Shown here piece by piece: positions 29,939 to 30,540 of a stretch of DNA of 64,000 nucleotides. Each line of letters opens with the position of its first letter. The first letter of the stretch is position 1. Made by a program: the position numbers and the translations under genes. This DNA comes from Psychrilyobacter piezotolerans (GTDB lineage Bacteria > Fusobacteriota > Fusobacteriia > Fusobacteriales > Fusobacteriaceae), in contig NZ_QUAJ01000003.1 of NCBI RefSeq assembly GCF_003391055.1, positions 1-64,000 on the forward strand, read 5' to 3'. The notes below the pieces were generated by a model. It did no database searches. It was not told where the DNA came from and saw only the letters and a list, made by a program, of their open reading frames with translations.

Positions 29939-30255
29939 ATGACTGAAAAAAAATTATTAGAAATATTAAAGCCCGAGGAAAAACTTCAATTTTTACAAAA
30001 TAAACAACAAAAAAAATTAAGAAATAAGGAGGGAGTTGACGTGGATTCCTGCCCTGGTCTTCTGCTTGTTAAAGAGGGAAAGCTCAGGGTATATCTAATC
30101 GCCAACAACGGAAGGGAGATAACTCTCTTTAATATCCTTCCAGGGGAGTTATTTCAAGAAGTTTAAAAAATATGCAGCTGAATAATATAGTCGAATTAAA
30201 AAGAAAGAGTGTTCTTGTAAAAGATATTGATGCCCTAAAAAAATTAATAAATTAA
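29939..30255 (+). pseudogene. Crp/Fnr-family regulator gene with internal deletion
   Basis: The first 75 codons encode the start of a cyclic-nucleotide-binding-type domain (LLLVKEGKLRVYLIANNGREITLFNILPGELF) and then meet a stop. After a few bases a second frame from 30172 encodes the typical extreme C-terminus of the same family (NNIVELKRKSVLVKDIDALKKLIN). The middle ~120 residues, including the DNA-binding helices, are missing, so the gene is dead. Intact relatives sense redox or gas signals in anaerobes. It lies immediately upstream of the candidate selenoprotein gene, which has a Crp-like palindrome at an activator position. Confidence 0.8.
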
Positions 30256-30261
30256 ATCTAA

Positions 30262-30276
30262 TGTGACAAAGTCACA
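30262..30276 (+). promoter_or_regulatory. Crp/Fnr-like palindrome upstream of the small UGA-containing gene
   Basis: TGTGAC-AAA-GTCACA is a perfect 15-base palindrome (17 with the flanking A and T). A TAATAT -10 box lies at 30300-30305; with a start near 30312 the palindrome is centred close to -43, the class II activator position. The gap between TGTGA and TCACA is five bases where E. coli Crp uses six. Confidence 0.55.
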
Positions 30277-30328
30277 TAAATTCAGACTCTTTTATGAAAT
30301 AATATAAATAAATATAGGGGGGGTAATT

Positions 30329-30484
30329 ATGAGCGTATTAGAAAAGATCAAAAGTGGAAACTGACCTCTTTTAAAAGTCTTGAGGTTAAGACTGTTTAAG
30401 AAGGGCGGAAAAAAAGATATTACAAAGAAAAATAATCTTAAAGGTAGTACGAATTCCTCCAAAGATTGTGATACTTGAGGATAG
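30329..30484 (+). CDS. Candidate 51-residue selenoprotein with two in-frame UGA codons
   Basis: A start ATG follows a run of seven G. Eleven codons (MSVLEKIKSGN) lead to UGA at 30362. The same frame then runs open for 37 codons to a second UGA at 30476, preceded by DCDT, then Gly and a UAG stop. Read as Sec (U), the protein is SGN-U-PLLK near the N-terminus, a basic middle, and a C-terminal C-D-T-U-G tail, a CxxU redox-type motif. Each UGA is followed 17-19 bases later by a hairpin with a G-rich loop, and the two hairpins resemble each other. The unit has its own promoter, palindrome and terminator and holds nothing else. Alternatives are an 11-residue peptide or a decayed gene. No known family is recognised and no Sec machinery is in the window. 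Confidence 0.5.
30372..30398 (+). promoter_or_regulatory. SECIS-like hairpin after first UGA
   Basis: AGTCTT and AAGACT pair around the loop GAGGTT; beyond a one-base bulge (G) four more pairs extend the stem (TAAA with TTTA). The loop starts 17 bases after the UGA and has G in first position, within the range described for bacterial SECIS elements. Confidence 0.5.
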
Positions 30485-30490
30485 AAAACA

Positions 30491-30509
30491 GGTCTTTAGG
30501 TTAAAGACC
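30491..30509 (+). promoter_or_regulatory. SECIS-like hairpin after second UGA
   Basis: GGTCTTT and AAAGACC form seven perfect pairs around AGGTT. The loop begins 19 bases after the second UGA. Stem and loop resemble the first hairpin (GTCTT, AGGTT, AAGAC in both). Confidence 0.5.
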
Positions 30510-30513
30510 GGAT

Positions 30514-30540
30514 AAAGAGGAGTTAATATTCCTCTTTTTT
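30514..30540 (+). terminator. Terminator of the small UGA-containing gene
   Basis: AAAGAGGA pairs with TCCTCTTT and is followed by T residues. It ends the transcript only 30 bases after the UAG stop, confirming that the unit is very short. Confidence 0.8.

Follow-up and report, generated by a model that had tools for sequence, protein, structure and literature searches.

The short open reading frame (ORF) that we describe here, in a stretch of 64,000 nucleotides of Psychrilyobacter piezotolerans ("the window"), is in our opinion best explained as the gene of a microprotein with two selenocysteines (Sec), miniaturised from a selenoprotein of the rhodanese type and situated in a module that is now decaying. 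We hold this view with moderate confidence, and leave open whether the frame is expressed in this strain. The case is a comparative one, built on the homology of both ends of the protein, the conservation of its UGA codons, covarying hairpins, the Sec machinery of the genome and signs of purifying selection. A present function of the short ORF is nevertheless unproven, given that its regulator is broken, that one relative has ATA in place of the ATG and that a third species keeps only a fragment ended by UAA. The features of the locus are the following.

29939-30255, plus strand: broken gene of a Crp/Fnr-family regulator; it still matches the intact relative at residues 1-72 and 170-208, about 0.3 kb and the frame being lost
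30262-30276, no strand assigned: palindrome TGTGACAAAGTCACA, probable Crp/Fnr-family operator, at about -43 from the start site set by TAATAT at 30300-30305
30329-30484, plus strand: mini selenoprotein ORF, 51 aa, two Sec (U12, U50) as read here, stop TAG
30362-30364, plus strand: UGA codon 12, very probably Sec, in the motif G-N-U-P; same UGA in the paralogue of the same genome (contig C12), in genomes G003, G006 and G007, and in Propionigenium maris
30376-30393, plus strand: SECIS-type hairpin 1 (stem of 7 bp, loop AGGU), whose first base is 14 nt past that of UGA12
30476-30478, plus strand: UGA codon 50, very probably Sec, in the motif C-D-T-U-G; same UGA in every full-length relative
30491-30509, plus strand: SECIS-type hairpin 2, GGUCUUUA-GGU-UAAAGACC, 8-bp stem, triloop GGU, starting 15 nt downstream of UGA50
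30514-30537, plus strand: intrinsic terminator, from sequence analysis

Direct reading of the sequence confirmed the frame given in the preliminary description: an ATG at 30329 behind a G-rich ribosome site (30316-30323), TGA at 30362 (codon 12) and 30476 (codon 50), and TAG at 30482-30484. With both UGA read as Sec, the product is MSVLEKIKSGNUPLLKVLRLRLFKKGGKKDITKKNNLKGSTNSSKDCDTUG. That description had considered two UGA and no other stop to be notable. The argument is weak when taken alone, since simulated neutral drift of this sequence leaves the frame free of UAA and UAG in 25-50% of runs, and an open frame of 50 codons has no significance on its own. What lifts the short ORF above chance is the hairpin after each UGA, together with homologues that have UGA at both places; on this comparison the short frame is very probably real, and both its UGAs very probably Sec codons. 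The 51-residue frame has no match in Pfam or NCBIfam, and AlphaFold models the protein with low confidence (pLDDT 60). The window has no Rfam match at the gathering threshold (at E up to 5 the locus gives only chance-level ones), and plasmid records gave only short chance matches.

The two ends of the window protein match the two ends of rhodaneses of about 130 residues with Sec near each terminus (GNUP...CxTUG). A DNA search of relatives found one of these in P. maris DSM 9537 (genome G011, contig C5), where a gene with UGA at both places, downstream of an intact Crp/Fnr gene, encodes MNIWQKIKSGNUPLLKALRVRFGKQ...(rhodanese)...LKGGMDSFKECNTUG. When 98 Fusobacteriota genomes were searched at the protein level, intact relatives with two UGAs turned up in two congeners, G006 and G007, and also in the genome of the window itself, where the gene follows one of ArsR type (C12:27323-27718). 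The DNA pattern GGNAAYTGACCNHTNNTNAAR, which covers G-N-U-P and the start of the LLK stretch, occurs at six sites in 98 Fusobacteriota genomes, all of them in this rhodanese family; the corresponding search with a pattern for the C-terminal motif was unspecific. The preliminary description had proposed to look for homologues with either UGA or Cys at the two codons. UGA is indeed present at both places in the own C12 gene, in G006, G007 and P. maris, and in a short form from G003 discussed below, and no homologue of the tails with Cys was found. When 84,980 species were scanned with the family alignment, P. maris alone contributed two-Sec members to the best 80 loci; UGAs in other rhodaneses among these loci resemble ordinary stops or upstream noise.

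Seen in this light, the window ORF is a family protein minus about 80 internal residues, its N-terminal part (to KKDITKKNN) running directly into LKGSTNSSKDCDTUG. It shares with the two-Sec rhodaneses the N-terminal IK(S/T)GNUP(L/M)LK, the C-terminal CxTUG followed by UAG and a SECIS after each UGA, and with the P. maris copy also the Crp/Fnr neighbour and the palindrome. The relatives differ from it in having 130-131 aa and a complete PF00581 core (44-52 bits, cut-off 22.2), whereas the window gene lacks about 80 residues of that core and has no match to PF00581 (Pfam). The Cys of the rhodanese active-site loop, VVC(T/S)xG in the full-length relatives, lies in the deleted region, and the deletion appears from the alignment to have taken essentially the whole rhodanese core. 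The AlphaFold model of the C12 paralogue is confident in the rhodanese core, with block means of 86-94 for residues 31-120, while residues 1-26 and 127-131, which bear both Sec, are of low confidence; if this model is a guide, a core of the C12 type was removed and the tails with both Sec were left. We suppose, as the notion of miniaturisation implies, that a Crp/Fnr-linked two-Sec rhodanese gene would have undergone an in-frame loss of about 80 codons, nearly its entire folded core, which would have brought together the two tails that bear Sec, IKSGNUPLLK at the N-terminus and CDTUG at the C-terminus. The claim that no described family has this layout thus survives in part: the family defined by the two ends is apparently undescribed, but the short ORF is not an orphan, being an internally deleted member of it.

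A genome without Sec machinery would have refuted the selenoprotein reading, as the preliminary description had pointed out. This did not arise, as selD, selA and selB lie consecutively on contig C5 of the window's own genome, and a tRNA-Sec on contig C6 scores 65.8 bits, where the gathering score is 47. SelA, SelB and tRNA-Sec are all above their cut-offs, SelD having been read directly next to SelA. The selD gene (L001:204-1226, C5) itself has a UGA in frame at the catalytic position (CSGGGUTSK), with the same type of hairpin downstream; its apparent GTG start at 276 is an artefact of this UGA being taken as a stop. Judged by the genes present, the cell is predicted to be able to insert Sec.

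Hairpin 2, which was absent from the preliminary description, lies beyond the UAG stop, between UAG and terminator, and is probably a second SECIS. We scored as positive any UGA followed, with a start 13-18 nt after it, by a stem of at least 6 with GGU in a loop of 3-4 nt. Only 2 of the 2,191 UGA triplets of the window (both strands) are positive, and these are exactly UGA12 and UGA50; the background outside the family is 17 in 23,372. It should be acknowledged that this criterion was set only after the hairpins had been seen, and that three further window UGAs pass once loops of as many as 5 nt are allowed, as selD requires. In hairpin 1, 98% of the cells are paired over seven sequences, with two pairs changed on both sides, and the sole broken cell belongs to the G006 fragment described below. 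In hairpin 2, all 36 cells are paired and all six core pairs have changed on both sides, a covariation that exceeds all 500 shuffles as well as slid controls, and the loop is GGU or a close likeness in all relatives. The hairpin 2 alignment was cut by hand, in each sequence, to the hairpin identified there, and is therefore biased towards structure; G003 was excluded for its 5-nt loop. Each UGA would then be decoded by SelB and tRNA-Sec by means of its own downstream SECIS, the second one past the UAG. The two-Sec selenoprotein with a C-terminal CxxU that had been proposed is supported by this machinery, by the covarying hairpins and by the relatives with both UGAs. One could still imagine a frame open by chance, with UGA as an ordinary stop and a real product of 11 residues or none at all, in view of the shortness of the ORF and its lack of a database match of its own; we consider this hardly tenable, and already contradicted by the homology of the ends to two-UGA rhodaneses, the two SECIS hairpins and the Sec machinery.

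A second short form, of 49 codons plus stop and with both UGAs, is present on contig C515 of G003, a relative from the same genus, behind an intact Crp/Fnr gene. It has in common with the window form the junction AATAATCTTAA(A/G)GG and a similar terminator, and the two differ by a single indel, of 6 nt and in frame. Over 46 usable codons there are 13 synonymous and 13 non-synonymous differences (Sd 13/27, Nd 13/111), which gives dS 0.75, dN 0.13 and dN/dS 0.17 (Fisher p 0.0001). Without codons 13-24, which also code SECIS1, dN/dS is again 0.17 (p 0.0009), and as few amino-acid changes arose in just 0.1-0.5% of neutral simulations. The adjoining Crp gene, across the same split, has dS 0.56 and dN/dS 0.16-0.17, so that the constraint on the short ORF seems similar to that on an intact gene. 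The dS of the C12 gene between species is about 0.11, and the split of the short forms is, by this measure, estimated to be much older than the species split seen in the C12 gene. Contig C515 may hold a paralogue, or it may come from a related species as a contaminant; the inference on divergence holds either way. If the common junction stands for a common deletion, selection has acted on the short form itself and has apparently preserved it from then on, although this estimate comes from one pair of sequences.

We infer that both short forms inherited one deletion. It can be objected that the two genes diverged under selection while still full-length, and that the same internal segment was lost from each independently and recently, the low dN/dS being a legacy of that past, and similar breakpoints could indeed be favoured, since CTTAA(A/G)GG on the C-side of the junction codes the common LK(G) motif. 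We regard this as quite improbable, because the junction is shared by both short forms, and because the derived residues KNNLKG and NSSKDC are common to both and occur in no full-length member.

The signs of decay are, on the other hand, numerous. The genome of the window has no intact copy of its broken Crp/Fnr regulator. In the short ORF of G003 C515, the ATG of the window form is replaced by ATA; an AUU just upstream could serve as a weak start, or the base may be wrong in the MAG. What is left in G006, at the syntenic recR locus, is codons 12-38 alone; they lack a start, one SECIS1 pair is broken, and a UAA comes early in the frame. A frame broken by UAA or UAG in relatives had been named as a possible refutation, and this is touched by the G006 fragment. 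At the recR locus of G007 there remain 91 bp of the Crp gene and no trace of the short ORF, and at that of G003 (contig C502) the Crp gene is cut by an IS3-type element (L092:753-1897), with two transposase frames inside the Crp/Fnr gene. In G006 a gene of 351 aa is inserted between recR and the short-ORF remnant (L086:3749-4804); a sequence related to this gene is found in antisense orientation beyond the short ORF of G003 C515. A degraded C-terminal part of a third family copy is found on C5 of the window's own genome (L081:2330-2422, plus strand; ...MEKLGFSNIYNLKGGLKSFNDCNTUK), with an AGGU hairpin still downstream. The decayed copies at recR loci and this C5 remnant thus suggest that the rhodanese family is in birth-and-death turnover, and the module of Crp/Fnr and short ORF may be dying in the genus.

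The main rival of our interpretation is consequently a well-preserved relic, that is, a pseudogene whose core was lost by deletion and which is not yet laden with stops, its UGAs being ancestral Sec codons in a functionless short frame. The missing catalytic core, the broken regulator, the G003 copy without ATG, the mere fragment in G006 and nothing in G007, the further remnant on C5 and the ease with which drift leaves the frame free of UAA and UAG all speak for it. We nevertheless think it less likely than our own reading, since it accounts poorly for the low dN/dS (0.17) of the two short forms when dS has reached 0.75, for the retention of both SECIS hairpins (the second with changes on both sides) and for a sole indel that is in frame. 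That the miniaturised protein still functions as a stand-alone two-Sec redox peptide, its tails kept by selection after the enzyme was deleted and acting possibly as a selenosulfide carrier or partner of the intact rhodanese, we can suggest only tentatively, and would not ourselves bet on it.

The palindrome upstream of the short ORF is perfect and is the sole window match at up to 2 mismatches, a figure to be read with the finding that 47 of 100 shuffles also contain at least one such match. It is kept in G003 C515, and the P. maris version is TGTGACATAGTTACA. The -43 spacing would, by inference, be that of a class II Crp/Fnr activator site, and a Crp/Fnr protein may formerly have activated the short ORF from there. 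The transcription unit had been described as promoter, frame and terminator; the terminator at 30514-30537 stands, but no sigma-70 consensus promoter was found beside the short ORF.

Several other rhodanese-like frames with UGA were observed. On P. maris contig C17 (G011, L080, minus strand), one frame runs from a subtilisin-type S8 peptidase through CSSGGU-GGG to a rhodanese ending in CNAUG, with UGAs at 2151 and 2514 (reverse-complement coordinates), each followed by a GGU-loop stem; it is possibly a protease-rhodanese fusion selenoprotein. On contig C3 of the same genome (L079:1990-2379, minus strand), a rhodanese has UGA at the position of the catalytic-loop Cys (VVUTGG) and a C-terminal CSDUG; a GGU hairpin follows the C-terminal UGA and, by the simple criterion, none follows the active-site one. 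In four loci of other Fusobacteriota (L053, L055, L076 and L054), whose genomes have SelA, rhodanese-like frames end in Cys-UGA with a further stop within the next two codons (GCUA, GCUN, CUGI, CUGF); these ends could be C-terminal Cys-Sec tails or plain stops.

Five forms of rhodanese selenoproteins have been listed, UxxS, UxxG, CxU, UxxG and UxxxxU (PMC13188914, Table 1). None of them, as far as motifs and models tell, corresponds to GNUP and CxxUG with a rhodanese in between, and the NCBIfam scores are far below cut-offs. The rhodanese-related (seleno)protein NF041203 ("form 3") likewise puts a rhodanese domain to use in a selenoprotein, but has one Sec, in CxU; against its cut-off of 115 bits the full-length relatives reach 41-47 bits, and the window ORF has no match. 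TsoB (NF045694, "form 5", UxxxxU), a rhodanese/DsbD fusion-like protein with the ArsR-type regulator TsoR (NF045707), is also of rhodanese type with two Sec, but differs in motif and domain plan, and the two-Sec rhodaneses have no NCBIfam match to NF045694. The ArsR gene before the own C12 gene matches TsoR only weakly (46.6 bits, cut-off 115), and the BigR model weakly as well. Among the nearest solved relatives of the full-length family in the rhodanese domain are the Sud polysulfide-sulfur transferase (PDB 1qxn) and a CoA-persulfide reductase (PDB 8a56), which perform persulfide or polysulfide chemistry and have no Sec tails, while the window protein has no rhodanese domain. Searches of the open literature (subscription papers excluded) turned up nothing relevant on selenoproteins of Propionigenium or Psychrilyobacter or on bacterial micro-selenoproteins. 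The full-length two-Sec rhodanese family is thus apparently undescribed and without a curated model, and we consider it a larger finding than the short ORF.

As to function, only inference is possible: sulfane-sulfur redox chemistry for the full-length protein, and the role of a Sec-tail redox peptide for the short one. CxxUG can be likened to redox pairs that form a selenenylsulfide, and the C-terminal CxxU of the short peptide might do so; the peptide might take part, alongside the intact rhodanese paralogue, in the redox chemistry of sulfane sulfur or persulfides. In most of the known bacterial selenoproteins a folded redox domain has Sec in its active site; here two Sec seem to have survived when the domain between them was lost, which suggests that the tails alone are active. 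If the reading of the short protein is true, few known proteins with two Sec would be smaller, and its gene would be, with two SECIS in series on a message of about 200 nt, a small and testable system. Short two-Sec genes of this kind escape standard annotation because UGA is read as a stop.
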